29,718 bases of DNA from a virus. Position 1 is the stretch's first letter. Each line of letters opens with the position of its first letter. This document shows positions 44 to 29,718 of the stretch, in pieces. The stretch lies in the IMG/VR virus record IMGVR_UViG_3300038954_000411, positions 1-29,718 of that record. One strand, given 5' to 3'. A program made the position numbers and the translations under genes. Under the pieces are notes generated by a model that saw nothing but the letters and a program-made list of their open reading frames with translations, searched no databases and was not told where the DNA came from.

Positions 44-238
44 ATGTCAGACAATCGCGTCTTTAAGTACCATGATCAAACGTGGGAGGGTCCGGGCGAG
101 GAATACACCAACGAAGACGTCCGGCGACACCTGCAGACCTACTTCCCGGAACTCGCCCAGGCCGATATCCAGGAGAAAACCCTGGACGACGGAACCGTAG
201 AAGTCACCTTCGTCAAGCGCGCCGGCACCAAAGGTTAA
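44..238 (+). CDS. PRTRC system protein C, ubiquitin-like modifier
   Basis: A 64-residue protein that resembles PRTRC protein C, a family with a predicted ubiquitin-like beta-grasp fold. The start VFKYHDQTW, the central block YFPELAQADI and the ending VTFVKRAGTKG match my recollection of the family. The chain ends exactly on a glycine, as needed for C-terminal adenylation by an E1. An AGAGGAG ribosome binding site at 31-37 precedes the ATG. It is the first gene visible in an operon that also encodes E1-like, E2-like and JAMM-protease proteins, so its inferred role is the conjugated or carrier polypeptide. Conjugation to a target is inferred, not shown. The operon promoter must lie upstream of the window. 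Confidence 0.85.
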   Translation: MSDNRVFKYHDQTWEGPGEEYTNEDVRRHLQTYFPELAQADIQEKTLDDGTVEVTFVKRAGTKG

Positions 239-241
239 GCG

Positions 242-487
242 ATGAACGCCCGCGACGTCACCCGCCGCCTGGCCGCCCTGGAGCCGCTGGAACTCGACGC
301 CATCGCCCTACTCATCGAACTCGAAGCGCGCGACGAGATCACCAGCGAAACCATAGACGAACTACAACCACGCATCCAGGAGGCCACGGCGGCCCTGGGT
401 GATCACATTGACGCAGTCAGAGAGGTCGTAAAACGATGTCAGAAACTGCAACCCATACCATCCAGGCGCATCCCCCCGTGCTTCTAA
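242..487 (+). CDS. Small helical acidic protein in PRTRC operon, unknown
   Basis: An 81-residue predicted protein, largely helical and acidic (runs such as ALEPLELDAIALLIELEARD), starting three bases after the stop of protein C. The C-terminus overlaps the next gene by about 52 bases in another frame, so the last 17 or so residues may be constrained by that gene and the protein could be real only in its N-terminal two thirds. An AAAGG at about 228-232 is a weak ribosome binding site. I do not recognise the family and no catalytic motif is visible. Position suggests a partner of the ubiquitin-like pathway, but that is only an inference. Confidence 0.6.
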   Translation: MNARDVTRRLAALEPLELDAIALLIELEARDEITSETIDELQPRIQEATAALGDHIDAVREVVKRCQKLQPIPSRRIPPCF

Positions 488-1278
488 CTCGCGCTCGCGC
501 TGCCTTATCACGGTACGCCTTGCCGCGCTATTGCGATATCTACGCCTATCTATCCAACCTCAGAGCCATCAGCAAGATGCGCAAACTATGGCGCGATCTA
601 TTTGACCAGTCACCGCCTTCAACAACCTGCGCTCTGGACCTGTCAAATGCCCTGGCTAATATGATCGACCAACGGCTTTTCCCGATCAGATTTGAGATCC
701 TGAATGATGCCGTTTACGCCGGTCACACCATTGATGAGATCCTCAATTACGACGTGCCGTACGACTCCCAAGGCCTGGCCTGGGAATGCCTGGAACTATG
801 CGACCTGGGCACGTCCTTTCGGCCGATGGTCGCCGTGGTGGCTCCACACGTTATGGACGGCTATCCCAGATACACACCCTATGCCAGCCAGATCCGACAC
901 TACTGGCAAGAGCACGGCTACGACGCTCCCCCCACGCTCGAATGGCCCGCTGACGCCTGCGCTCCCAGCCTGCTACAGAACCTTCCCGAACCGTTCGACG
1001 GCCTGGCCACAGCCTGGAAAATCACGATGAAGGGCAACAACAACGTTTTTCTGGACGCCCCAAACCCCTACTGGCGATTCGAGTACAACATAAAATGGTA
1101 CACCTGGACCACTGCAGACCTGACCGCTCTGGCCCAGCAATACAACCAGGCCGAGCAAAGCCTGGTGCAAATGGAACGCTATATCAACTGGTTTAAGGAT
1201 CACCACCAGACCGCCGCCGAGACCGTACTGGATACCTTGATCAACCTGGAAGATGACTACCAGGAGATGAAACGATGA
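436..1278 (+). CDS. PRTRC protein F-position protein, unknown fold
   Basis: A 280-residue soluble protein with no signal peptide or membrane segment. It is rich in aromatic residues and has blocks such as GLAWECLELCDLG and WRFEYNIKWYTWTTADL, ending in a long helix (LTALAQQYNQAEQSLVQMER onward). In PRTRC loci a protein called F lies between C and B, and this gene occupies that slot. I cannot confirm F-family membership from motifs alone. An AGAGG about 10 bases before the ATG is a plausible ribosome binding site. Its stop overlaps the start of the B gene in an ATGA, so the two are translationally coupled. Alternative: an unrelated insertion in the cassette. Confidence 0.7.
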   Translation: MSETATHTIQAHPPVLLTRARAALSRYALPRYCDIYAYLSNLRAISKMRKLWRDLFDQSPPSTTCALDLSNALANMIDQRLFPIRFEILNDAVYAGHTIDEILNYDVPYDSQGLAWECLELCDLGTSFRPMVAVVAPHVMDGYPRYTPYASQIRHYWQEHGYDAPPTLEWPADACAPSLLQNLPEPFDGLATAWKITMKGNNNVFLDAPNPYWRFEYNIKWYTWTTADLTALAQQYNQAEQSLVQMERYINWFKDHHQTAAETVLDTLINLEDDYQEMKR

Positions 1279-1991
1279 CAATTAGACCCGACGAATCGCA
1301 AAACGCATTAGAACTCGCCACACGTGGCCTGGGCGACATAACCCAAGAGGAACCGCGCCAAAAACTCCAGATGCGCATCTCGCTCTATGACGAAACTATT
1401 ATCCTCACCCGATACGACGATGGGGCGCCTATCTCCACCTACGAGATCGCACCCGATGACCTGGCCTCGGCTTTCAGCGACGTGCCCCTAGCAACAGACC
1501 TTTTACCGCCTCAATGCCTTCATTACAGCCGCTCTGGAGGCCAGGAGGCCCTCGTCGTCTACCTCCCGACTCAAACCCGCTCGCTGACGTACAAAACCGC
1601 TCAGGGCCAGTCGGAGACGATGACCATCCCCACGCCAGATCTCGTGTTCGCTGGCCGCGGTTCCAGATACCGCATCTTCGCCGTCAAGCAACGCCCCCAC
1701 CCGGGCAACGACCGCGAGCGGCTCTTCGCCGCTCCGTTCCCCAACGTCCACAGCGACGGTCGTATCTGCGCCGGCAACGTCACCTTTCCCGTCTGTAGCG
1801 CCCAGACCATCCACCAGGCCGCTCGACGCTTCTTCAACTCCCAATTCAATGGCGACCTGAGCAACGACAAATCATCCCGCTTTGAAAACGTCATTGCTCT
1901 CTGGCGCTACCTGCAGGACCAGGACATTTACCCCAATGACGACCTGGTTCGTACCCGCTACACGTTCGACGATCTGACCCAGGAGAAATAA
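1275..1991 (+). CDS. PRTRC system protein B, E2-like conjugating enzyme
   Basis: A 238-residue protein assigned to PRTRC B, a family predicted to adopt the E2 (UBC-like) fold. The diagnostic block is FPNVHSDGRICAGNV at about residues 155-169. It mirrors the E2 active-site signature (HPN, then G-x-[IV]-C), with Cys165 as the candidate catalytic cysteine. A second conserved-looking block, RFENVIALWRYL, follows near the C-terminus. The gene starts inside the stop of the preceding gene (ATGA) and ends two bases before protein A. Expected role: accept the ubiquitin-like protein C as a thioester from the ThiF protein encoded downstream. The substrate is unknown. Confidence 0.85.
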   Translation: MTIRPDESQNALELATRGLGDITQEEPRQKLQMRISLYDETIILTRYDDGAPISTYEIAPDDLASAFSDVPLATDLLPPQCLHYSRSGGQEALVVYLPTQTRSLTYKTAQGQSETMTIPTPDLVFAGRGSRYRIFAVKQRPHPGNDRERLFAAPFPNVHSDGRICAGNVTFPVCSAQTIHQAARRFFNSQFNGDLSNDKSSRFENVIALWRYLQDQDIYPNDDLVRTRYTFDDLTQEK

Positions 1992-1993
1992 CG

Positions 1994-2629
1994 ATGCTGC
2001 CGAACTCACTTCAACCCGCCGACTACATCATCTGGCGCAACGGTCAAAGATTGGAAATGCCCACCGGCAAGGCCTTCATCTACCTGCTCGCTGGTAATGG
2101 CGTCTTCAAACTGGCCGAATCAGCCAATATCCGCGCGCTGATTCCTCTGGTCCGCGTCAATATTGCCGGGTTGCCCGATCTGCGTCCTGACGTTCAATCC
2201 AAAAAAGGTAAAATCCCGGCTCGCCTCCTCTCTCAGATTATCCGCGACGCTCGCCAGCAGGCTCCCCACGAGGCGATGTACCACCTATGCTTCCAACGCG
2301 GCGTCATTCGTGCCTATCGCCCCCCACAACTGGCCGACGCCGCTCACATCGACTATGCCGGAGGCGACAATACCGCCATTCTCTGCGACCTCCACTCGCA
2401 CTGCACGATGCACGCCTTCTTCTCCGGCACCGACAATGGCGACGAGCAAGGCTTCCGCTTCTACGTTGTCATCGGCCAGATTTTCCGTAACCCTCAGATT
2501 CGCGTGAGAATCGGAGTCTACGGCGATCACTACCCCGTCCCCGCCACCACGCTCTTTGAATCACTTCCGCACCCCGTCAAGGATTGCTACCTCAAGCCCA
2601 CCCCACGGGAGAAAAAGCAATGCAAATAA
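1994..2629 (+). CDS. PRTRC system protein A, JAB/JAMM metalloprotease
   Basis: A 211-residue protein with a JAMM-type zinc-binding signature: H134-S-H136, then S144 and D147 in DLHSHCTMHAFFSGTDNGDE. This is the H-x-H...S-x-x-D arrangement of deubiquitinase-like peptidases. An upstream acidic residue (for example E93) could complete the site. The family in this context is PRTRC protein A, which would process or remove the ubiquitin-like protein C. An AGGAG at about 1984 precedes the ATG. The 3' end overlaps the true start of the ThiF gene by ten bases. All the visible catalytic residues are intact, so there is no sign of decay. Confidence 0.87.
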   Translation: MLPNSLQPADYIIWRNGQRLEMPTGKAFIYLLAGNGVFKLAESANIRALIPLVRVNIAGLPDLRPDVQSKKGKIPARLLSQIIRDARQQAPHEAMYHLCFQRGVIRAYRPPQLADAAHIDYAGGDNTAILCDLHSHCTMHAFFSGTDNGDEQGFRFYVVIGQIFRNPQIRVRIGVYGDHYPVPATTLFESLPHPVKDCYLKPTPREKKQCK

Positions 2630-3420
2630 CCGAACGCTACCCCATCCAGATTGGCGACCCCAACCGCATCTACCTCATCCTCGTCGGCTGCGGCGGCACC
2701 GGATCATTCCTGGCCCTGCACCTCGCCCGGCTTGCCTATCACGCCCGCCAGCGCAGCGTGCGCCCGCTATCCCTTATCTTCATCGACCCCGATGTCGTCG
2801 AGTCCAAGAATCTTGGTCGCCAGAATTTTTGCCCTGCCGAGATCGGCAAAAATAAGGCACGCACACTGGCCAGGCGCTACAACCTCGCCTTCGGACTCGA
2901 CATCCGCGCACACGCCACGCCATTCCATTCCAGAATAGTGCGCGGTAACATCTACCAAACGTTCAGATTAGTCATCGGCGCCGTCGACAACGCCGCTGCT
3001 CGCCAGGCCATTCAGGATTACGTCACCAGCAACCGACAAACCTGGTGGCTAGACTGCGGCAATCACGAACACGCTGGCCAGGTCGTCATTGGCAACCAGG
3101 AAAACCTCGACGCCCCCAACATCGACCCGCTCGGCCTCTGCGCCGGCCTCCCACTCCCCACCCACCACCATCCCGATCTCCTGGAGCCTGACCCAGAGCC
3201 GGATCGTGACGCACATACAGAATCCTGTGCCGATCTCGCTCTACGCGACGCTCAGAGCCTGATGATCAACCAGGCCATCGCCGCCTACGCCGCGCAATAC
3301 GTCTATCGACTCGTGCTCACCCAGGACCTGGACACCTACGCCACTTACATCGACCTGGAAACGGGTAACGCACAATCAAAACCCATCACGAAAGGACAGA
3401 AAGGACAACCCAATGCCTAA
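2620..3420 (+). CDS. PRTRC system ThiF family protein, E1-like
   Basis: A 266-residue E1-like adenylyltransferase. The Rossmann nucleotide-binding loop is LILVGCGGTGSF (about residues 19-30), followed by the metal/ATP region IDPDVVESKNLGRQNF (55-70) with the Arg of the E1 family. A candidate catalytic cysteine is Cys146 in WWLDCGNHEHAGQVVIG. I chose ATG 2620 over an in-frame ATG at 2584 because a GGGAG lies eight bases upstream and the protein then begins near the usual family start. Predicted reaction: ATP-dependent adenylation of the C-terminal glycine of protein C, then thioester transfer to protein B. It overlaps both neighbours slightly, as expected for one transcript. Confidence 0.92.
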   Translation: MQITERYPIQIGDPNRIYLILVGCGGTGSFLALHLARLAYHARQRSVRPLSLIFIDPDVVESKNLGRQNFCPAEIGKNKARTLARRYNLAFGLDIRAHATPFHSRIVRGNIYQTFRLVIGAVDNAAARQAIQDYVTSNRQTWWLDCGNHEHAGQVVIGNQENLDAPNIDPLGLCAGLPLPTHHHPDLLEPDPEPDRDAHTESCADLALRDAQSLMINQAIAAYAAQYVYRLVLTQDLDTYATYIDLETGNAQSKPITKGQKGQPNA

Positions 3421-3607
3421 ACAGAAGAATCGTACACAACACATCACCGTTAGCGACGATCTGACCGTCTCGCTCTGGTCGGGCGTGGGGCTCTGCATCC
3501 ACAGCCAATCTAGACCTCAATACCCTACACCAGTCACTGACGAAGAACTACCGGACCTGATCGACGCCCTGCAGCAATACCAAGACCAGAAAAAACGCGG
3601 GAGATAG
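3413..3607 (+). CDS. Small PRTRC-operon terminal protein, unknown
   Basis: A 64-residue basic protein, start ATG overlapping the ThiF stop by eight bases, with an AGGACA stretch as weak ribosome binding site. It has a short beta-like N-terminal half (ITVSDDLTVSLWSGVGLCI) and a helical end (PDLIDALQQYQDQKKRGR). I do not recognise it. As the last gene before the terminator it is co-expressed with the E1/E2/JAMM set and may be a small accessory subunit. Translation is plausible but not proven. Confidence 0.55.
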   Translation: MPKQKNRTQHITVSDDLTVSLWSGVGLCIHSQSRPQYPTPVTDEELPDLIDALQQYQDQKKRGR

Positions 3608-3689
3608 CACATACAAGAGAGAGGTTATCCGCTCACTGTAGGTCATATTATTGAGTAATACGGCCTGTAAGCAGTATTACCAAATAACA

Positions 3690-3719
3690 CACCCCCGAGA
3701 CATTTAGGTCTCGGGGGTG
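3690..3719. terminator. Bidirectional terminator between PRTRC and phage late operons
   Basis: A perfect 12-bp stem (CACCCCCGAGAC with GTCTCGGGGGTG) and a six-base loop ATTTAG, between two convergent operons. The downstream T-run is weak on either strand (GATGGTTTGTACT on plus, TTATTTGG on minus), but stem stability and location support termination in both directions. An additional weaker inverted repeat GTAATAC/GTATTAC lies at 3655-3680. The rest of 3608-3739 holds no gene. Confidence 0.8.
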
Positions 3720-3739
3720 ATGGTTTGTACTATTGACAG

Positions 3740-4561
3740 TTATTCATTTAAGATAAGGGGGAGATAAATATCATACGTGATGCTGGGCAATCCGATACCT
3801 GCACCTGGCGTTGGATCGCAATTGATGCACGGTGTCGCCGTTGCAAAATCGGCGTCATACACCGATAGTCCCGCCGGCGTATACCACGGCGTATACGTGG
3901 GGGCCGGCGTCGCTGTGCTCAACGGTGACGTTGGCGAATCAAACACCAGCAACTTCCCATCCGTGGACAATCCGCCAAGCAATATACTAAACAGCGATAC
4001 AACCAACAATATAACCCCTGCGATCTGCTCGAAACATCCTGATTGATTTTTGTGCTGTAGCAATTCATAATCCAGTGCATCAGCCCGCCCCTGAGCCCCT
4101 AACCACCCCGCTATTGCCGCAGCCACCTTAGCTAACATTAAAGACCGCGAGACTGGCATCCCTAAAGCCAAAAAATGCCTTAAAACGCGCCCCAGCACGT
4201 CAGCCGCACTATACCCTGCTATACCCCCGTAATTCTCGCCAGAACCGCCTATAATGGCCCTGGCCCCTGCTTTAAATAACGCATCAACCATCTCGTTGTT
4301 TTCCAGACCGTAGCAGGTTCCTAGAAAAACCACACCATTGTGTAAAGGTAATCGGGTCACGTCCTTTGCGGTGAGCACTACGTTGCCGTTGTCATCCAGC
4401 CAGGCCTTTCCATCTGCTGATGGATGCAAGAATACCATCAGTAGATCATACGGCGTCTGGAAATCCGCATCGGAAAAACTGGTAATAACTTGTGCTTCAT
4501 CGCCAGCGATCATCCTCGCTCTTTCTTTGAACCTGTCCAACGTAATGACCAGTGTTTTCAT
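3740..4561 (-). CDS. Membrane-anchored caspase/CHAT-like (clan CD) protein
   Basis: A 273-residue protein. Residues 1-150 resemble a caspase/CHAT domain: a strand ending FLHPSADG with His46, then VVFLGTCYG with Cys83, then ALFKAGARAIIGGSGENYGG, the typical segment after the catalytic cysteine. A single membrane helix follows at about 180-197 (IAGVILLVVSLFSILLGGL), then an extracellular Pro/Thr-rich tail ending IYLPLILNE. That ending is like the terminal motif of many Chloroflexota exported proteins. I chose ATG 4561, with GGGGG at 4567-4571, over ATG 4582, which has no ribosome binding site. It has its own candidate promoter motif at 4581-4602. It is the last gene of the phage late strand, after the DGR. 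Role unknown: effector, superinfection or surface function. Confidence 0.6.
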   Translation of the reverse strand: MKTLVITLDRFKERARMIAGDEAQVITSFSDADFQTPYDLLMVFLHPSADGKAWLDDNGNVVLTAKDVTRLPLHNGVVFLGTCYGLENNEMVDALFKAGARAIIGGSGENYGGIAGYSAADVLGRVLRHFLALGMPVSRSLMLAKVAAAIAGWLGAQGRADALDYELLQHKNQSGCFEQIAGVILLVVSLFSILLGGLSTDGKLLVFDSPTSPLSTATPAPTYTPWYTPAGLSVYDADFATATPCINCDPTPGAGIGLPSITYDIYLPLILNE

Positions 4562-4580
4562 AAGAGCCCCCACAGCGTGC

Positions 4581-4602
4581 ATAACATCAATTATGTGCGC
4601 TA
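4581..4602 (-). promoter_or_regulatory. Phage-specific promoter-like motif, copy 1
   Basis: Minus strand TAGCGCA-CATAAT-N5-TTAT, the same as copies 2 and 3 at 12033 and 23848 with identical internal spacing. CATAAT (4590-4595) could serve as a -10 element, and TAGCGCA takes the place of a -35 since no TTGACA-like box lies 16-18 bases upstream. It overlaps the stop codon of the 165-residue protein and lies 19 bases before the start of the CHAT-like gene, with GGGGG in between. Confidence 0.6.
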
Positions 4603-6292: not shown

Positions 6293-6411
6293 CTTGCAGG
6301 CGCGGAAACCCTTGTTCACGTTGCGATTCGACGGCGCGTTGTTGAGGTTCAGTGCGAACACACCTGCGCGAACACCGTTGTTCCAGTTGCCGCCGCGGAT
6401 AGCCGCGCGTT
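6293..6411 (-). repeat. DGR template repeat (TR)
   Basis: A 119-base template between avd and the RT gene, matching 6842-6960 in the target gene without gaps. There are 19 differences, and each falls on an adenine of the transcribed (minus) TR strand. The TR has about 27 such adenines, so roughly 70 per cent are altered in VR, and none of the other 92 positions differ. Read in the target frame it gives an Asn-rich sequence (RGGNWNNGVRAG, then ALNLNNAPSNRNVNK), the typical AAY-codon design of DGR templates. The transcribed RNA is the substrate for the reverse transcriptase. Confidence 0.96.
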
Positions 6412-6838: not shown

Positions 6839-8227
6839 AGACTTGCAGGCGCGGAAACCCCTGGACACGAAGCGATCCGACGGCGCGCTGCCGAGGACCA
6901 GTGCGAACACACCCGCGCGAACACCGCCGAACCAGCCGCCGCCGCGGATAGCCGCGCGTAGCGCCGTGGGATTGAACCAATATCCATCCTGCCCATACGA
7001 AGTTGATCCGGTGCCGTCGCTGGTGGCCGGAATTGCCAACGGGCCGAGATTGGCGTCGCTGCGCAGCGTGAGGATGCGATTTCCGCTCGACATCCCGGCG
7101 GTGACGTCAGTCTCCACCAATTCCAAAATCTCGTACGGCCCAGACGCTGGCGTGTCAGCGCCATCGACACTCAGTACGTTCGCAGTATTGGAGTCGATGT
7201 AGTACAGGTTACCACCCGCATCATAGAGAAAATTGCCCGCGAACTCGTCGGTTATCCAATCCTTGTTGCTATCCGTCAGTGAGCCCGCCGCCGTGCCGGT
7301 GCTCTCGCCAAACGGAGAGCCACGCAACGACAAATCATCGTTGGCGTGGATGAGTACGTAGCCATCCTCGCCTGCGCCGGTGATTTCGTGTGGCGTAGTA
7401 CTATCATCGTCCAAATTCTCCGGCAAGAGGAATAGGCCACTTACCCACTCCCAGATATTGCCATTGAGGTCGGCGACACCATCGCCGCGCCAATTGTGAC
7501 TCCACGTCACCGGTCCGCTGCCAGTCAGCGCCGAGTCGTGCGCCCCCCGATCCGCCAGCGCCCAGTCGCGGATGCCTAGTTCGTCGGGATATTCGGCGTC
7601 ACTCGGCGGATTTGTGTCGCCGTTCGGCCCGCGCGGCTGGGTGCCTAGCTCCGCCGCCTCAAACGCCAGCCGCGCCCACACTCGCGCTGGCGTGAGAAAC
7701 CAGCCTGGACCAGCGTTGCACGCGGCCTTCCGCGCCTCCAGGTACGTGATCTCTCGCCACGGGCTGACGCCGGGCTTGCTATCTACTCTAAAGGTCCCAA
7801 CTGGCGCGCCGTCGCCCACGTTAGGATTGTCGTCCCACGGCGTCGCGGCCATCTGGCTGCCAGAAAATTTCTGAATCACGCAGCCGTCATAACCGTAGGA
7901 ATTGAGCGTAGTTGGCGGCAAATAGACACAATGCCCGCCATGAGTATCTTCATAATTCATAAATGTCGCCTCGGCGGCTTCCAGGCGCTCCGTCAGGTCG
8001 TCGAAATCCCCTTTTACGTCGCTTCCTGCCGGATCACCCTCCACGGCATCCCCGTCCGCGTTCCACACGGCGAGATCGCCATCGTCGCCTGCCGTGCCGG
8101 ATACCAGGTCGTCGTCCGCGCCGGTGCGGTCGCTGATCGCTGAGTCCAGCTCGCTCAATGGCGAGTTGAGAACATCGGCATCCAGCAAATCTCCGTCAGA
8201 GTGTGGTGTGTGATGATTAGTTGTCAT
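6833..8227 (-). CDS. DGR target: tail receptor-binding protein with C-type lectin (FGE-like) fold
   Basis: A 464-residue protein. Residues 1-90 are polar and acidic with a short coil (LTERLEAAEA), probably the attachment to the tail. Residues 95-464 resemble the formylglycine-generating-enzyme version of the C-type lectin fold used by many DGR targets, including DLNGNIWEW at 253-261 and the ending GFRACKSL. Residues 423-462 are the variable region (plus coordinates 6842-6960). Codons that are Asn or Lys in the template have become Gly, Phe, Val, Ser, Asp or Arg at about ten sites, while scaffold residues such as RAGVFAL and AP are kept. ATG overlaps the stop of the upstream propeller gene (ATGA), with GAGGGGG as ribosome binding site. 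Predicted role: switchable host-surface binding. Confidence 0.92.
   Translation of the reverse strand: MTTNHHTPHSDGDLLDADVLNSPLSELDSAISDRTGADDDLVSGTAGDDGDLAVWNADGDAVEGDPAGSDVKGDFDDLTERLEAAEATFMNYEDTHGGHCVYLPPTTLNSYGYDGCVIQKFSGSQMAATPWDDNPNVGDGAPVGTFRVDSKPGVSPWREITYLEARKAACNAGPGWFLTPARVWARLAFEAAELGTQPRGPNGDTNPPSDAEYPDELGIRDWALADRGAHDSALTGSGPVTWSHNWRGDGVADLNGNIWEWVSGLFLLPENLDDDSTTPHEITGAGEDGYVLIHANDDLSLRGSPFGESTGTAAGSLTDSNKDWITDEFAGNFLYDAGGNLYYIDSNTANVLSVDGADTPASGPYEILELVETDVTAGMSSGNRILTLRSDANLGPLAIPATSDGTGSTSYGQDGYWFNPTALRAAIRGGGWFGGVRAGVFALVLGSAPSDRFVSRGFRACKSL
6842..6960 (-). repeat. DGR variable repeat (VR)
   Basis: The 3' end of the target gene, aligned ungapped with TR at an offset of 549. 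All 19 substitutions are at TR adenines, and one of them is synonymous (a GCA to GCG Ala codon). The 3'-most 19 bases (6842-6860, up to the last codons before the stop) are identical to TR and are the likely initiation-of-homing region. The substitutions show that mutagenic homing has happened at least once in this lineage. Confidence 0.95.
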
Positions 8228-9900: not shown

Positions 9901-12023
9901 TATTCCACCCCCACCGGAGCAGTAGAACCGGTTGCACGTCCGCCTGTTACGTTGATCTCAGCCAACATTGCATAGTATGCATAACCATTGCCGCTACCGG
10001 ACTGGGCATTAACCACGCAATCATTGACGTAAATACTCACCTCGTCAGTATCCGAATCTGCATAGATTCCATACGCATCCCCGGTGCCATCTTGTTGCAC
10101 GTCAACCGTGCAACCGCTGACCCGTGCTACGCCGTTGCCCGGGCCAATAATGCCTCGGAGGTCATTGCTATCATTGGCCGTTCGCTCAACCGTGCAGCAC
10201 TCCAGCGTCGTTTCGGCGCTTAATGTGATCTCTCCGGTAAGCCGACTTGCCCAGCGACTGATTCCAATGTAATGCACGCCGGCAGCTAATGTGTGATCAT
10301 CGCCAATCGTCACCGGCGGTATCCACACCACATCACCGGTATCTGCCGCTGCACTCGCGTTATCCAATCCCGATGCGCTCGCAGCATACAATCCGCGTAA
10401 ATCACTGCCTGCATCAAATAGATAGATATACTTCTGGCGCGTCAGATAGGTCGCGGCTGGTATCCCCCCCAATGCCTCGGAATCATCAACCACACCGTTG
10501 GCGTTGCTGTCGTAGATGCTTTTGAGCATATCGCCGCTGGCGCCTCCAGCGATGGCCGCTGTTGCCTTGGCATCCGTCGTCGCCAGGCTATCCGTCGTTA
10601 CCATATTTTGCTGTGTGCGTCGCTGCTCCAGCTCGGCTAGCAATACCTCCAGCCGGTCCGTTCGACTGCGAGGCGTCAGGCGCACCTCGCGCTCGGATAT
10701 GCGTACGCGTGTAACCTGAACATCAATATCACGATATGGCACCACGTCGCGCAGCGTCACAATATCCCCCGCGCGAATGAAAAAACCGGGCCAAATAGAC
10801 CCATCTGGCCGTTTCACGTGAGCGCCGGCTTCTAACCTCATCGCCGGCACCGGCCAGGCATTATCAGCCAGAAAAATCTGTGCCAGCGTCCGAGCTTCTG
10901 CCTGTGTTGTCTTTGGCACGTCCAGCGTCCGCTCTCGTCGCCCATATTTCTCTATCGAATTATCATTTGTGTACCAATCAGAAACCCATCCGTTCGGCAG
11001 TCGTGCCCGAACGGCGTTGAACACGTCCTCGCGATCCCATTCTAGCTCAATCCGATCCAGGAAATCGGGCGTAATCATCCAGTCTGGATCATCTGACCAG
11101 GCGCCAAAGACAACCTGTCTATCGTAGATCGAAAAAACGAATGGCTCCGAGCCGTTGCCTAATGCCGACATATCGTGTAACGCCGTCAGTGACGTGTTCA
11201 TCCCCCCCTGGTACACGGCTCGTGAAACCTCCTGGTCTGTTGCTGATATATATTTTCGCTCCAGATCTAGATTGCTGTTATCTAGAATCGACTCGACGAT
11301 ATCGCTCGTCGTGACCGGATACAGCGTGCGCACCACGACATTGGTTAATATCGCCGTCGCTTCTCCCGTCCCCGCACCATTTTTGGTCAGCACCCACGTC
11401 ATCTCGCTGGCGTCGCTAACCGTAATTGCGACATCAGTCTCTGTATCAGATGTTGTCGACCACACGGTCGACCCATCGGCTTGTAACGCCACCACCCAGG
11501 AACCGCTGGAGATCGTCACTTCCACGTGTGCCTCGATACGCACGATCCCCGCCCCCAGCTCAGCATTGCTCTCTGGATACGTACACGCCACCGCATCACC
11601 ATCAATATATTCTACTGTTGATGCTGCGCTGCAATATACGCGATTATTATTATCTGCTGATAGACCATCAGTCGTCTCGTCATCTGGCGCCCAAAGCCGA
11701 TATCGCGGATCGCTAAATACTCGCCACAATTCCTCATCGGCCAGATGCTGTACCTGCCCGATCGCTTCCACGCGCATTTGCAACCCGCGCAACCGCAGCC
11801 GCGCTAAATCCCCGCGCCACAATGTCTGGCCTGCGCCCCAGGCCTCCAGTTTTCCCCCGGCCCACCCGCCCACCAATCGCCAAAGATCGCGTTTGGGCGC
11901 ATTCATTTCTAACCGCGCTTCCCACCAGCCCCCTGGAATCTGCGATTCCAGCCGATAGGATGCCACGCGTTCGGTGATATCGATCCGTCCTGTCAAATCG
12001 GTGTCGAGGATAAATTGAATCAT
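9900..12023 (-). CDS. Tail hub / minor tail protein with C-terminal beta-helix
   Basis: A 707-residue structural protein. Residues 1-130 look like a tail hub domain (ITERVASYRLESQIPG, WEARLEMNAPKRDLW). About 160-235 looks like a jelly-roll insertion, and 240-460 like the second hub half (SDIVESILDNSNLDLERKYI, DREDVFNAVRARLPNGW). After a linker, residues from about 540 contain short beta repeats resembling a right-handed beta-helix (TTLECCTVERTANDSNDLRG, RVSGCTVDVQQDG), a fold used for tailspikes. The ATG has no ribosome binding site but lies nine bases after the copy-2 promoter-like motif, which would give a very short leader. Position after the Dit-like gene fits siphovirus tail-tip order. 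Confidence 0.75.
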   Translation of the reverse strand: MIQFILDTDLTGRIDITERVASYRLESQIPGGWWEARLEMNAPKRDLWRLVGGWAGGKLEAWGAGQTLWRGDLARLRLRGLQMRVEAIGQVQHLADEELWRVFSDPRYRLWAPDDETTDGLSADNNNRVYCSAASTVEYIDGDAVACTYPESNAELGAGIVRIEAHVEVTISSGSWVVALQADGSTVWSTTSDTETDVAITVSDASEMTWVLTKNGAGTGEATAILTNVVVRTLYPVTTSDIVESILDNSNLDLERKYISATDQEVSRAVYQGGMNTSLTALHDMSALGNGSEPFVFSIYDRQVVFGAWSDDPDWMITPDFLDRIELEWDREDVFNAVRARLPNGWVSDWYTNDNSIEKYGRRERTLDVPKTTQAEARTLAQIFLADNAWPVPAMRLEAGAHVKRPDGSIWPGFFIRAGDIVTLRDVVPYRDIDVQVTRVRISEREVRLTPRSRTDRLEVLLAELEQRRTQQNMVTTDSLATTDAKATAAIAGGASGDMLKSIYDSNANGVVDDSEALGGIPAATYLTRQKYIYLFDAGSDLRGLYAASASGLDNASAAADTGDVVWIPPVTIGDDHTLAAGVHYIGISRWASRLTGEITLSAETTLECCTVERTANDSNDLRGIIGPGNGVARVSGCTVDVQQDGTGDAYGIYADSDTDEVSIYVNDCVVNAQSGSGNGYAYYAMLAEINVTGGRATGSTAPVGVE

Positions 12024-12032
12024 ACTGCGTGA

Positions 12033-12054
12033 ATAACCCGCATTATATGCGCTA
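12033..12054 (-). promoter_or_regulatory. Phage-specific promoter-like motif, copy 2
   Basis: Minus strand TAGCGCA-TATAAT-N5-TTAT in the 66-base gap before the hub gene. Here the hexamer is a perfect TATAAT (12042-12047). A start site six to eight bases downstream would leave a leader of about 12 bases before ATG 12023, consistent with the missing ribosome binding site. A TATTTCC palindrome sits about 20 bases upstream. Confidence 0.62.
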
Positions 12055-12073
12055 TCTAATCGATTTAATTGAG

Positions 12074-12089
12074 TATTTCCCAGGAAATA
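12074..12089. promoter_or_regulatory. TATTTCC-CA-GGAAATA palindrome, operator-like
   Basis: A perfect 7-bp-arm palindrome with a two-base centre, in the gap between the Dit-like and hub genes and just upstream of promoter motif copy 2. The reverse complement of the whole 16-mer recurs exactly at 28363-28378, and a close relative lies at 17934-17949. Candidate binding site of a phage dimeric repressor. Confidence 0.5.
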
Positions 12090-13421
12090 TCACGGAATCA
12101 TTGCGTATCGTGGCCTGGCACGGATGTGCAGTCGAGCCGTTCGCAGCGCCTCTGCGCCACCGCCGTAAAGCGCCAGTACCAGCATCTGCTCGTTGGGGGG
12201 TGTAGGGCCAGGTAATGCCTGCGGCAACATATCATCCGGCCAGAGATGAATTCGTCGGCCCCAGCCGTTGACAATTGGCATTCGTTCATCACCATATCGA
12301 TACACCAGCTCATCGCGAATACCATTATCCTCGATGCACGTACCTGGGAGCGCGTTGTACCCCTGGAATTCGAGAATGCGATACTGTTGCATCGGCACAA
12401 ACATTAAAAAATCCAGGTTTCTATTCGCGCTACCCTCCAGCCAGACGCTCATATCGTAGCGCGTGGGATGAGTATAGCCGCCCGGCGGCAACATAACAGC
12501 ACCTAGATCTGTCCAGCCGTGCTGACCGTCGACGCTCTCCAGCGTCTGCATTCGGCTGACCTCGTATCCCACCGAAAGCTCCCAGGTTCCCGATAATTCG
12601 CCAAAGGCTAGCGCGCGATACATCCCTACAAAATCCACCAGCGATGTATGCGCTACGTCCCAATGGAATCGATTGGACCTTCCATATGCATTGTTGCTAT
12701 ATTCGGTGCCAGATACCACGTGAGCACTATCAGCCTCTTCACCCTCCAGCGTGAGTATCGCGGGACGATCAGACCAACCCAACGCGACCTTGCCCAATCG
12801 TCCCTCGCTATATGTGTTACGAACGACAATCATCGCTGGAGTTGGAACATCACCCTCCGGTGCATCTACTAGCACCCAGTTGTTATGCCCCTCCTCATCG
12901 TCATCGTGATTGTAAATATCACACGTATTAGCAAATGACCAACCAGTAGACGTGTTGGCCACCTGACAGACAGTTTCCTCCCCGTGCCAATACGGCGCTC
13001 GCTGAATCGTCACCTCTAGCGTTTTACCTGAACTACTGTCAAAATCAATTTTTCCGCCATACAGATCGGCCTCATACCACTCGCCCGCTTCGTGTCGATC
13101 ATCATCGCGTACCTGTATCACTGTACGCATATCCTGCCGGAAACCCTCGGACCAATGTCGCGCTCTGGTTAGCGCGGCATTCAGCGTGCGTAGATAACCT
13201 GGCGCATCGCATCGCGCTGAAAGCACTAACGTCTCCTCGACGTTCTCTACACGATGCCCGACGGGTCGAGACCCAATTCCTGTTCCACGAGTCCAATCTA
13301 CATCCTCTGGTGGCGCTTGCGGTACATACTCCAGGATGTCCAGTGGAGGAGATATATTCGTAGTCGTAATCTCTTCGGACTCAGTTGTCCATTCAATTCG
13401 CGCCAGCCGGAATTGTAACAT
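12090..13421 (-). CDS. Distal tail protein-like (Dit-type)
   Basis: A 443-residue tail protein positioned after the tape measure. Its N-terminal 150 residues have the pattern of distal-tail proteins: an early beta domain (LQFRLARIEWTTESEEI), a helix used for ring packing (LRTLNAALTRARHWSEGF), then strands leading to KIDFDSSSGKTLEVTIQRAP. Residues 180-443 look like galactose-binding/jelly-roll modules (SFANTCDIYNHDDDEEGHNN, LSGTWELSVGYEVSR), perhaps a carbohydrate-binding insertion. It starts with a TAATG overlap on the tape-measure stop. Alternative: a minor tail protein unrelated to Dit. No catalytic motif is visible. Confidence 0.7.
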   Translation of the reverse strand: MLQFRLARIEWTTESEEITTTNISPPLDILEYVPQAPPEDVDWTRGTGIGSRPVGHRVENVEETLVLSARCDAPGYLRTLNAALTRARHWSEGFRQDMRTVIQVRDDDRHEAGEWYEADLYGGKIDFDSSSGKTLEVTIQRAPYWHGEETVCQVANTSTGWSFANTCDIYNHDDDEEGHNNWVLVDAPEGDVPTPAMIVVRNTYSEGRLGKVALGWSDRPAILTLEGEEADSAHVVSGTEYSNNAYGRSNRFHWDVAHTSLVDFVGMYRALAFGELSGTWELSVGYEVSRMQTLESVDGQHGWTDLGAVMLPPGGYTHPTRYDMSVWLEGSANRNLDFLMFVPMQQYRILEFQGYNALPGTCIEDNGIRDELVYRYGDERMPIVNGWGRRIHLWPDDMLPQALPGPTPPNEQMLVLALYGGGAEALRTARLHIRARPRYAMIP

Positions 13422-15484
13422 TACATCATCCCCCGAGACCGCAGCTCGGAGTTTAAACGTCGCCCGACCACTTCGCTCACGCGGTCTGCGACGTATTCAA
13501 TATCCATCTGATCATTCACCGCAAATGGTCCTACCTGGCCAATTTGGATCATCACCTCACCGCCACGCTCGCGAGCGATCATCGCCCGCGACTGTGTATT
13601 GCTGTAAACCCGAGACCCGGCTGGTAACCGCAACAATTCCGGACCACGTTCACCTACCCAGCTCCACCCCGACGTTGATACCATTCCGCCCACCTGATAC
13701 CCAGGCTCTTCTCCACCGGGACCACCACCCCCATTATCGTCATCCCCGCCGTTCCCTCCATCTCCACTGCTACCATCAGCGATCACCTCAATACGATAAG
13801 GAGAATTTTGTACCAGACTGCGCAAATTTTGCTCTGTAGCACCTAAACTGTCGGAAAATCCCAGCATCTGCCCCGAGGCTGTGCTCGCGTCGCTCCCCAG
13901 CCCCTGGACCGGCCTGCGCAAATTATGCATCTCATTCGCAACATTCGTCGGTACATCGTCGAATGCGCGATATAGATCGTGGATCTTAACGGTTCCATCC
14001 TCCGCGTCCTCAATGAGGTACCCCAGGGCCTCATCAACATCTTCGAGCGGAATTTTATTGCTCTCAATCGCCGCTGCCAGATCAGGCAAGGTGCTGGCCA
14101 GTGCGATTGATTTTTCGTCCATTATCCCATATGCCGTTCCAATTTCAGTGACCGCCTTGGAATATGCCTGTGCCCCCATTTTCTTCGGGTCGAGCATCCC
14201 CATCAGCTTACTCGCAACCTGCTGATCCGTTGCATTTTTCAGGCTGGTCGCCAGATCAGCGGCAGCCCTGGCATGCTCCTGCAACGCTTCAGTTGCCTGT
14301 TTGTGCGGTCCAAAACTGCCGCTGGCCACGCCAGAAGCCGCTCCCATCGCATCGGCCATCGCCTGATAGCGTTGGCCCATTGTCCGAACGACTTGCCGGT
14401 GCGAGACATAATTCTCATTCGCCGTATGCAAAATCCCGGTATGATTTTGTAATTTGGCGCTGAGCGGGTCCATCACTCCGTCAAGCTCACTCATACCGCG
14501 TTGAGCCGCCCAGGCCTGCCGGCTGAGGACGCCCATATTTTCGGCTACGATGGCGTTGCTCTCGGCACTCAACAACGCTGATCGAGCCTCTGCCCTATGG
14601 ACAGATGACAGCTCATTTGCTGCCTCTGCGGCATCCAACACGCCATCCACATATTCCTCGTATGTGATCGCCGTAGACGCCACGTGCTCTTCGTGCTCCT
14701 CCTGTGCTTCATTCAGTCGCTCATTCCAGGTGATCAACAATTCGGCCGTCTCGGCGGCATCGGCTAATACAGGCGTCAACCGCTCGCCTATTTCGACCTT
14801 AATATCTTGCAAGGTGGCTTCTAGCCGCTCAAACGCCAGCTGGTTGTCGTCAACCGCTGGCCCCAATCGCTCCAGGGCTGCACGCCCCTCCTCCATCACG
14901 GCCAGCTTGAACGCCTCATCGTCTCCTACTGCCTTTTTGAGCTCGTTCCAGCGTTCGCGAACCCTCCCGCTCGCAATCCCAAATTGATCCAGCCTGGGTA
15001 TCGACTTATTAGCCAGCATCGCAGCGAAATCATCCATCGCCTGCGCTGCGTCCATTCCCATCGACGCGCCCAGCCGGGTGGCCATCTCGGTAACCGTTGC
15101 CAGCTCCTCAGAGCTGTCTGCCAACCCCATCTGCAAGAGCTTGTTGGCATTCGCCATCATCTCCATTTCGGACATCGCACCGCGCGTGGCGCGTTCCATT
15201 GCCGCCAGATTAGCCTCGGCCTGCGCCGTGCCGCCCGAAATGTTTTCGAACGCCTGTGTCGTTCGTTGTGATTGCGCTCCCAGCTGTGCCAGCTGATATA
15301 CGGCTTTCGCTGTTTCGACTGTAGCAAATGATGCCAGCGCAGCACCAGCAACCTGTAGCGCTCCTCCGAGCTTATCGGATGAGCTCTCAACATTCTGCAT
15401 TCGGCCCTCAACCTGATCGAGGGCCCGGCTGGCGCCTCTATCCTTGCCTTTGAGCAGAATCTCTAATGTCGTTCGCCGAGACAT
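13421..15484 (-). CDS. Tail tape measure protein
   Basis: A 687-residue, mostly helical protein in the tape-measure slot after the frameshifted chaperones. The N-terminus has the usual KGKDRGASRALDQVEGRMQN repeat-like start and a hydrophobic Ala-rich stretch (GGALQVAGAALASFATV). Residues 90-270 are coiled coil (ATVTEMATRLGASMG, AFERLEATLQDIKVEIGER). The C-terminus has a Gly/Asp-rich linker followed by VGGMVSTSGWSWVGERGPEL and LPAGSRVYSN, a common tape-measure end motif. Using the usual 1.5 angstrom per residue rule, this corresponds to a tail of roughly 100 nm. No lytic domain is seen. The ATG lacks a strong ribosome binding site and is separated from the chaperone gene by a terminator-like hairpin. 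Confidence 0.9.
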   Translation of the reverse strand: MSRRTTLEILLKGKDRGASRALDQVEGRMQNVESSSDKLGGALQVAGAALASFATVETAKAVYQLAQLGAQSQRTTQAFENISGGTAQAEANLAAMERATRGAMSEMEMMANANKLLQMGLADSSEELATVTEMATRLGASMGMDAAQAMDDFAAMLANKSIPRLDQFGIASGRVRERWNELKKAVGDDEAFKLAVMEEGRAALERLGPAVDDNQLAFERLEATLQDIKVEIGERLTPVLADAAETAELLITWNERLNEAQEEHEEHVASTAITYEEYVDGVLDAAEAANELSSVHRAEARSALLSAESNAIVAENMGVLSRQAWAAQRGMSELDGVMDPLSAKLQNHTGILHTANENYVSHRQVVRTMGQRYQAMADAMGAASGVASGSFGPHKQATEALQEHARAAADLATSLKNATDQQVASKLMGMLDPKKMGAQAYSKAVTEIGTAYGIMDEKSIALASTLPDLAAAIESNKIPLEDVDEALGYLIEDAEDGTVKIHDLYRAFDDVPTNVANEMHNLRRPVQGLGSDASTASGQMLGFSDSLGATEQNLRSLVQNSPYRIEVIADGSSGDGGNGGDDDNGGGGPGGEEPGYQVGGMVSTSGWSWVGERGPELLRLPAGSRVYSNTQSRAMIARERGGEVMIQIGQVGPFAVNDQMDIEYVADRVSEVVGRRLNSELRSRGMM

Positions 15485-28379: not shown

Positions 28380-29390
28380 CTATAAATGCCAATTGGCCAC
28401 CGGTGAAGCGCGGCGGTGCGCATCCTCCATATCCACCTCGGCGATCTCCACATACCGTTTGACCATCTCCAACGATGTATGACCAAGCGCGTGCTGCAGC
28501 TCCAATGTTTTTCCCCCATTCCGCAGAAAATTAATCGCAAACGTATGTCGGAATCGGTGAGCGTGCACATTATCCACGCCGGCTCGCTCCCCGAGGCGCT
28601 GCATCAACTGACTCACTGCACTCTGTGTCAGCGGCCCGCCAGCCCGCGCGCTGGCAAATAACGGCGATTTGCTGATGTAATCATCGCGCTGCATCAGATA
28701 CCGCCAGATCGCCTGTAGCGTCTGCGGAGATATCCTCAGCAGCCGCTCCTTATCGCCCTTGCCCCACACTGAGATCGTCAGGTTATCCTGGTCCAAATCC
28801 CCCACCCGGGCATACCGCTCAGGATACGCCTTAGACTGAAAAATCTCCCCGCTCCGGGCGCCGGTGTCCAACAGCGTGAGCACGATAGCTCTATCACGCA
28901 CCGCAGTAGGGCGGCGATTCCTGCACTCCGCCTTTCCCTCGCGCTTGTAGCGCTCAGTGTATCTACACGCCTCCAGGATTCTCTCCACATCGCTCTTGGA
29001 AAACGCCTTGATCGCTGGCTGCTCCGGCTCCGGCGCCTGCACCGCACGCACCACATGATCATCTACCAATTTCTCGGAGATAGCCCACGTCCACAGCGCA
29101 GAAAGTGCCGTGTGAATGTTCGAGATGCTTTTCTTAGAAAGCGTCCGGGCCGGTTTCGGCGCTATGCTGTCCGGCTCAATCTCCACGTCACTCAGCCACG
29201 CGAGAAAATCGCGAATGTCGTGATGATCAATCTCGTCAATAGCCACACTATCGCCATCACACTCTTTCGCATTCAACCAGTTGCGAAAGTGCCGAAAACT
29301 GTTATTGTAATCGTCAAGTGTCTTTGGACTCAATTGGCGAGCCCGAGCATTGATCAAATACCCTTCAACTGCATCGTTAAAGCTAATCAT
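28380..29390 (-). CDS. Tyrosine recombinase / phage integrase
   Basis: A 336-residue integrase. The SAM-like N-terminal core-binding domain covers about 1-120 (SFNDAVEGYLINARARQLSP, ISNIHTALSALWTWAISEKL). The catalytic domain has R179 in LDTGARSGEI, the beta-hairpin lysine near KGDKERLL, H278-x-x-R281 in HAHRFRHTFAI, H304 in LGHTSLEMV and nucleophile Y313 in VKRYVEIAE, so all the catalytic residues are present. I chose ATG 29390, with GGAGG nine bases upstream, over a longer in-frame start at 29444. It lies about 200 bases from the 3' end of a tRNA gene, which it reads away from. That gap would be the att region. It has its own downstream terminator. Confidence 0.95.
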   Translation of the reverse strand: MISFNDAVEGYLINARARQLSPKTLDDYNNSFRHFRNWLNAKECDGDSVAIDEIDHHDIRDFLAWLSDVEIEPDSIAPKPARTLSKKSISNIHTALSALWTWAISEKLVDDHVVRAVQAPEPEQPAIKAFSKSDVERILEACRYTERYKREGKAECRNRRPTAVRDRAIVLTLLDTGARSGEIFQSKAYPERYARVGDLDQDNLTISVWGKGDKERLLRISPQTLQAIWRYLMQRDDYISKSPLFASARAGGPLTQSAVSQLMQRLGERAGVDNVHAHRFRHTFAINFLRNGGKTLELQHALGHTSLEMVKRYVEIAEVDMEDAHRRASPVANWHL

Positions 29391-29491
29391 ACCGTTTGGC
29401 CTCCGGTAAATCGTAAAAATTTTTAAACCAAACACTGCAAACACAATCTCATTTATGCCCGCAGGAGAACCGATAAAAAATCAAACATCTC

Positions 29492-29584: not shown

Positions 29585-29592
29585 AAACGTTG

Positions 29593-29665
29593 TGGGCCCA
29601 CTTGGATTCGAACCAAGGACCGACCGGTTATGAGCCGGTTGCTCTGTCCGCTGAGCTATGGGCCC
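29593..29665 (-). tRNA. tRNA with anticodon CAU (elongator Met or Ile2)
   Basis: A 73-base tRNA with full cloverleaf: acceptor GGGCCCA/TGGGCCC with discriminator A, D-stem GCTC/GAGC, anticodon stem ACCGG/CCGGT with loop CTCATAA, a five-base variable region and T-arm CTTGG-TTCGAAT-CCAAG. CCA is not encoded. Not the initiator, because position 1 is paired and the anticodon stem lacks GGG. Met and lysidine-modified Ile2 cannot be told apart by eye. Its 3' end faces the integrase, marking the likely integration site. Confidence 0.92.
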
Positions 29666-29681
29666 CAATCCGTAGAGGAAA

Positions 29682-29718
29682 AGCGGGCGGCGGGAATCGA
29701 ACCCGCAACAGCAGCTTG
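29682..29718 (-). tRNA. tRNA-Gly, 3' part, cut by window end
   Basis: On the minus strand the last bases read as the 3' half of a tRNA: anticodon stem 3' side CAAGCTG, variable region, T-arm GCGGG-TTCGATT-CCCGC, acceptor CGCCCGC and discriminator T. The last anticodon base is C and the sequence looks like bacterial tRNA-Gly. It shows that the chromosome continues with a tRNA cluster to the right. Confidence 0.8.

Follow-up and report, generated by a model that had tools for sequence, protein, structure and literature searches.

Does a full set of ubiquitin-like conjugation genes at the edge of a viral contig belong to the phage, and, if so, what might it modify? The question is raised by IMG/VR virus record IMGVR_UViG_3300038954_000411, a linear virus fragment of 29,718 bases which was analysed over its whole length (the window). 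Its left 3.6 kb is made up of seven close-packed plus-strand open reading frames (ORFs) resembling the PRTRC cassette, a gene set defined by models TIGR03734-TIGR03742 and found mostly on proteobacterial plasmids. The cassette is almost certainly phage-borne and intact, and its residues make it likely that it runs an active conjugation cycle. The proposal as a whole, namely that a temperate phage encodes a ubiquitin-like conjugation and deconjugation cycle in its partition-module operon, with the maintenance machinery as the likeliest target, is offered tentatively, as a little short of an even chance.

Conjugation enzymes

The first ORF (44..238) encodes a ubiquitin-like beta-grasp modifier (Ub; PRTRC C-like) of 64 amino acids with the C-terminus KRAGTKG. 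It matches Pfam Prok_Ub over the gathering threshold (1.4e-9) and scores 34.6 bits with TIGR03738, against a cut-off of 45.95. P35, K58, G61, K63 and G64 are invariant across 20 relatives, and the C-terminal motif KxxGxKG is retained almost everywhere. The E2-like conjugating enzyme (1275..1991; PRTRC B-like) matches Prok-E2_D (2.6e-29) and, with 84.4 bits for a cut-off of 131.45, the PRTRC B model. Its active-site C165 lies within GRICAG, the Cys being invariant in 30/30 sequences; further downstream the window reads FNxD, the residue being His or Asp within the clade, and orthodox members read THPN or THL. The JAMM/JAB protease (1994..2629; PRTRC A-like) carries the motif HSH...SGTD and matches Prok-JAB (1.7e-8) and the PRTRC A model (62 bits, cut-off 101.8); E93, H134, H136, S144 and D147 are invariant in 21 sequences, orthodox PRTRC A among them. 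The E1-like adenylating enzyme (2620..3420) is matched by TIGR03736 (PRTRC_ThiF) with 164.2 bits against a cut-off of 144.75 (3.1e-48), and the motif columns of its GCGGTG nucleotide loop and of a candidate catalytic Cys in ESCA are invariant among relatives. Judged by these motifs, the cassette enzymes carry every residue required for conjugation.

The E1 also gives weak matches to the ThiF and MoeB models, as would suit a sulfur-carrier system of the ThiS/MoaD type in place of protein conjugation. We regard this as very improbable, given that there is a dedicated E2 whose Cys is invariant, that a JAMM protease is present, and that the modifier ends in GxKG and not in GG as ThiS and MoaD do; no sulfur-metabolism genes were recognised nearby.

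An earlier note on this DNA, made from the sequence alone, had described the modifier, E2, JAMM and E1 genes as intact and tightly overlapped. All four were found in their places, together with three cassette ORFs missing from that note (242-487, 436-1278 and 3413-3607). Comparison with the sister record G001 gave dN/dS (the ratio of nonsynonymous to synonymous substitution rates) of ~0.18, which indicates purifying selection on the cassette genes and a set that is in use.

Among the added genes, 436..1278 occupies the PRTRC F slot; it encodes a protein of 280 amino acids, of which 28 relatives have a homologue at this position. Its AlphaFold2 model (mean predicted local distance difference test, pLDDT, 87) consists of helices only and had no fold match in the PDB, so that it is possibly a new fold. 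Homology to PRTRC_F was considered and rejected: hhalign found no similarity, with an F profile of only two sequences, and TIGR03742 gave no match, the slot being filled by an unrelated-looking helical family.

The modifier precursor

The gene at 242..487 encodes X81, an 81 amino acid helical partner which in the window is a separate gene, in the Ub reading frame and after TAA-GCG. Using an iterated hidden Markov model, X81 was detected in 24 relatives, in many of which it is fused to Ub after GxKG. Ub stops exactly at GxKG in seven phages (the window, G001, G010, G022, L123, L126 and L127); in the remaining relatives it continues for 3 to 114 amino acids (3 in L114, 5 in L089 and at least 32 in the others). 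The extension differs by lineage, often being an in-frame fused X81 and elsewhere unrelated sequence. Because Ub in most relatives extends beyond GxKG, the JAMM protein probably matures the precursor by cutting after the last Gly of this motif. In the model of the fused Ub-X81 form (overall predicted template modelling score, pTM, only 0.41), a beta-grasp-like domain is joined to a helical one by a coil that lies at the motif and is of low confidence; together with the invariant JAMM catalytic residues, this fits such a cleavage. A PDB fold search with the precursor returned no significant match, only weak beta-grasp-like ones.

X81 itself ends in Gly-Phe-stop in 10 of the 11 fused relatives (L006, L014, L021 and others) and has the Gly in 11/11; the window X81 ends PPCF. 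The Pleurocapsales loci L008, L009, L016 and L020 yielded no JAMM gene, and between their E2 (or F-slot) gene and their E1 gene lies a ParB-like gene on the opposite strand.

Relationship to PRTRC and other systems

The earlier note had called these genes a PRTRC set. This stands insofar as they are PRTRC-like, with ThiF above its NCBIfam cut-off; the set is not orthodox, since three of the four shared models (C, B and A) score significantly yet below their cut-offs, and neither E nor F was detected. The order ParB-x-C-x-B-A-ThiF corresponds to that of orthodox plasmid sets, as in Sphingobium (ParB-E-C-x-B-A-ThiF), and the JAMM catalytic residues are identical. PRTRC E (TIGR03741) had no match in 16 records, nor in the control genomes of that search; the model does recognise Burkholderia phage BgVeeders33. 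In the E1 tree, the phage sequences form one group with those of Chloroflexota and cyanobacteria, distinct from orthodox PRTRC, with a 100/100 split on a branch of 1.91, some rows being long-branched; a further difference from the orthodox sets is that the window cassette is carried by a phage. On the strength of these comparisons, it is a deep-branching variant of PRTRC or of type 6d of Iyer et al. (2006).

For type 6d, Table 1 of that work (PMC1779556) gives a Ub-like protein, JAB, E1, E2 and a rapidly diverging alpha-helical protein, with cyanobacterial members. The window likewise encodes JAB, E1, E2 and a Ub-like protein ending in Gly, each by a gene of its own, and its counterpart of the rapidly diverging helical protein is the 280 amino acid product. 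The 6d row lists bacteria only and no phage, and the sections on this type that we consulted mention neither a ParB linkage nor a precursor of Ub and the 81 amino acid protein. A phage-borne Ub-like protein and JAB protease also appear in row 5 as lambda TAPI/TAPK, which, unlike the window genes, are tail-assembly genes without E1 or E2.

E2 relatives were found in only 2 of 50,697 phage records, one being the cultured phage BgVeeders33 (OK665841, L076). Its E, C, F, B, A and ThiF genes lie in one operon at 10231-14717 and all pass the cut-offs, while being annotated as hypothetical proteins or dinucleotide-utilizing enzyme. This complete genome resembles the window in that the cassette operon is convergent with late genes; it differs in belonging to the orthodox PRTRC branch, and no ParB is named in the inspected part of its annotation. 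Of 26 PRTRC papers in the open-licence literature, 7 of which also mention phage, none has a title that deals with a phage-borne set; an earlier mention elsewhere is possible.

Phage or host DNA

The right end of the window holds a prophage tyrosine integrase (28380..29444, minus strand; Phage_integrase 2.8e-26) and a tRNA-Met (29592..29665, minus strand), the likely attachment site with host DNA to its right, much as the earlier note had placed them. The bases beyond the tRNA-Met (29666-29718) contain the 3' half of another sequence that resembles a tRNA. An integrase beside tRNA-Met, with tRNA-like sequence to the right, puts the host on the right and means that the prophage extends left. 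The window integrase is 42% identical to one adjoining tRNA-Pro in an Anaerolineaceae metagenome-assembled genome (MAG), and the host is probably a member of the Chloroflexota.

Within the window no phage gene lies to the left of the cassette, and PRTRC sets are known from plasmids, both of which would be expected if the cassette were host DNA beside a prophage ending at 3608-3739. This explanation is scarcely credible. No copy of the tRNA-Met 3' end was found, either between the cassette and the late genes, where, according to the earlier note, such a repeat would have refuted carriage by the prophage, or elsewhere in the window, which held no tRNA or flank repeat of at least 12 nt (best ungapped match 15/25); the attachment-site search in Anaerolineaceae contig L006 likewise found no repeat of its tRNA-Pro region. 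Since the record ends at the left edge of the window, G001 (IMG/VR, 49,080 bp) was used for leftward context. It shares 96.9% nucleotide identity over window positions 52-3632, after which similarity ends. To the left of its cassette are ParA, an FtsK-like ATPase, an AAA ATPase and ParB, and to the right a large serine recombinase and then late genes distantly like those of the window (tape measure 47%, C39 peptidase 49%). The ends of G001 form a near-exact repeat of ~193 bp with one indel. In Anaerolineae MAG contig L004 the cassette is inside an integrated prophage: host genes for LacI, a glycosidase (GH3) and a kinase are followed by a restriction endonuclease and the integrase, beyond which lie ParB, the cassette and then convergent tail and head genes. 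The equivalent set of BgVeeders33, a cultured phage, also argues against host DNA. The suggestion in the earlier note that the prophage spans the cassette is borne out by the same block in terminally redundant phage genomes and in the L004 prophage.

A single-sequence search revealed 14 viral loci with the cassette, and a profile search 54 IMG/VR records besides the window with good E1 matches (L084-L130 plus seven earlier loci, including G001), the very distant matches L131-L140 being left out of the count. Portal or large-terminase models match 15/15 records in the first set, the window among them, and 23/39 in the second, or 38/54 overall; these are lower bounds because few models were used. 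Among the records whose ends were compared, 11 have exact direct terminal repeats of 127 or 144 bp (G013, G014, G016, G017, G018, G022, G024, G033, G043, G044 and G053), or at least 12 with G001 included, and those with exact repeats, although listed as linear, appear to be closed genomes free of host DNA. The cassette thus accompanies phage genes in dozens of records, which answers the question of co-occurrence that the earlier note had posed. Nine records with exact 127-bp repeats are listed as linear (G013, G014, G016, G017, G018, G022, G033, G043 and G053); they are probably complete circular assemblies.

The order Ub, X81, F-slot gene, E2, JAMM, E1 is maintained wherever the parts were found. 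ParB, whose presence upstream the earlier note had suggested checking, does precede the cassette in G001, and it is directly upstream in G010, G011, G013, G014, G016-G020 and three Chloroflexota contigs, mostly at less than ~40 bp or overlapping. In G001 and most close relatives this gene encodes a ParB family member which scores under the PRTRC_parB cut-off. The cassette sits in the replication/partition module, usually beside ParB.

Proposed function

By analogy with the families concerned, the E1 would adenylate the C-terminal Gly of Ub and load it on a cysteine, and the E2 would take it as a thioester and pass it to a lysine of the target. The JAMM protein would cut the Ub precursor after GxKG where it is extended, the end of the window Ub being already exposed, and would also undo the bond between Ub and target. 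The 280 and 81 amino acid helical proteins probably serve as adaptors or as subunits that recognise the target. As the target we conjecture the machinery by which the phage maintains itself, either ParB or its complex; tagging might then play partition off against replication, in the lysogenic state or early in infection. The cassette keeps its place beside ParB on plasmids and in phages whose head, tail and integration genes differ, and the maintenance machinery is for this reason the best guess, held with rather less than even confidence. The fuller statement, that temperate phages, several of them in Chloroflexota, use their own Ub cycle (mostly with a JAMM-cut precursor) to tag ParB or its complex and so switch between partition and lytic replication, must be considered unlikely as it stands.

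Superinfection defence is a serious rival because the bacterial relatives of known function act against phages: a lysogen might tag the structural proteins of incoming phages, in the manner of Bil or of the cyclic oligonucleotide-based antiphage signaling system (CBASS). Bacterial operons of E1, E2 and deubiquitinase with a tested function act against viruses, CBASS (PMC10097602) being one example; the E1, E2 and JAMM logic recurs in Bil and in type II CBASS Cap2/Cap3; the window E1 weakly matches the PADLOC E1-E2 and BilD models; and prophages commonly bear defence genes. PADLOC, however, gave no system-level match, and Ub, E2 and JAMM matched no Bil or CBASS component. The E1 and E2 genes of the window are separate, unlike those of Bil and CBASS, and no effector gene was seen. 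Moreover, the cassette does not occupy a slot of variable cargo but accompanies ParB on plasmids and in phages whose structural modules are unrelated. The earlier note had suggested a role in lysogen defence or phage-host control; the constant position next to ParB speaks for maintenance at least as strongly as for defence. We therefore rate defence as doubtful, and maintenance control is favoured over it.

Attachment of the phage Ub to host proteins during infection, as a means of takeover or counter-defence, would account for a location just ahead of late or packaging genes in many genomes, which fits an early block, and for a phage that supplies all the enzymes. Plasmids, on which orthodox sets are conserved, have no lytic phase, and this as well as the linkage to ParB makes takeover improbable.

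Several observations weigh against our own proposal of maintenance control by conjugation. Linkage to ParB is no proof that ParB is the target. ParB was not found adjoining several distant cassette relatives, and the window, whose left end lies 43 bp upstream of the cassette, has no ParB. The open-licence literature yielded no biochemical data on any PRTRC protein, and no solved structure was significantly related by sequence to Ub, E2 or JAMM. The conserved His downstream of the E2 Cys in the type 6d row of Iyer et al. (PMC1779556) is Asp in the window. Judged from this record alone, the assembly at 3608-3739 may be chimeric, though L004 and BgVeeders33 show the same convergent layout.

Other features of the window

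The last ORF of the cassette (3413..3607, 64 amino acids) is present only in the window and G001, between which it shows 5 synonymous and 4 nonsynonymous codon changes. The gap from it to the convergent gene is 132 bases and contains one strong hairpin of 12 pairs (3690..3719; z -5.7), a bidirectional intrinsic terminator common to the cassette and the late operon that can end transcription from either side. The convergence across about 130 bases with one shared terminator, as described in the earlier note, was thus confirmed by measurement.

The minus-strand late genes comprise Avd, reverse transcriptase, tail, tape measure, head, portal, terminase and integrase. The first product of this operon met from the cassette side (3740-4582, minus strand) had no family matches and by eye recalls a caspase/CHAT-type fold; G001 encodes a 32% relative. 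It ends in YLPLILNE, a tail presumably of the kind borne by Chloroflexota surface proteins.

The diversity-generating retroelement (DGR) has a template at 6293-6410 and a variable repeat at 6842-6959. Over these 118 nt there are 18 mismatches, 18/18 at template adenines (11 to G, 6 to T and 1 to C), a pattern which, as read from the two repeats, is the signature of an active retroelement. The earlier note had linked the cassette with a DGR phage. No relative of the window reverse transcriptase was seen in G001, the Chloroflexota contigs or G010-G022, and the link appears incidental.

Implications

To our knowledge, PRTRC operons have long had a name but no assigned function. The present data add a large group of temperate phages to the plasmids already known to encode a full set of E1, E2, Ub and protease. 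The fusions of Ub to its partner suggest a maturation step resembling that of eukaryotic ubiquitin precursors. Since many phages have it as a conserved module and a cultured Burkholderia phage carries an orthodox counterpart, the cassette becomes a block that can be deleted and whose target can be found.
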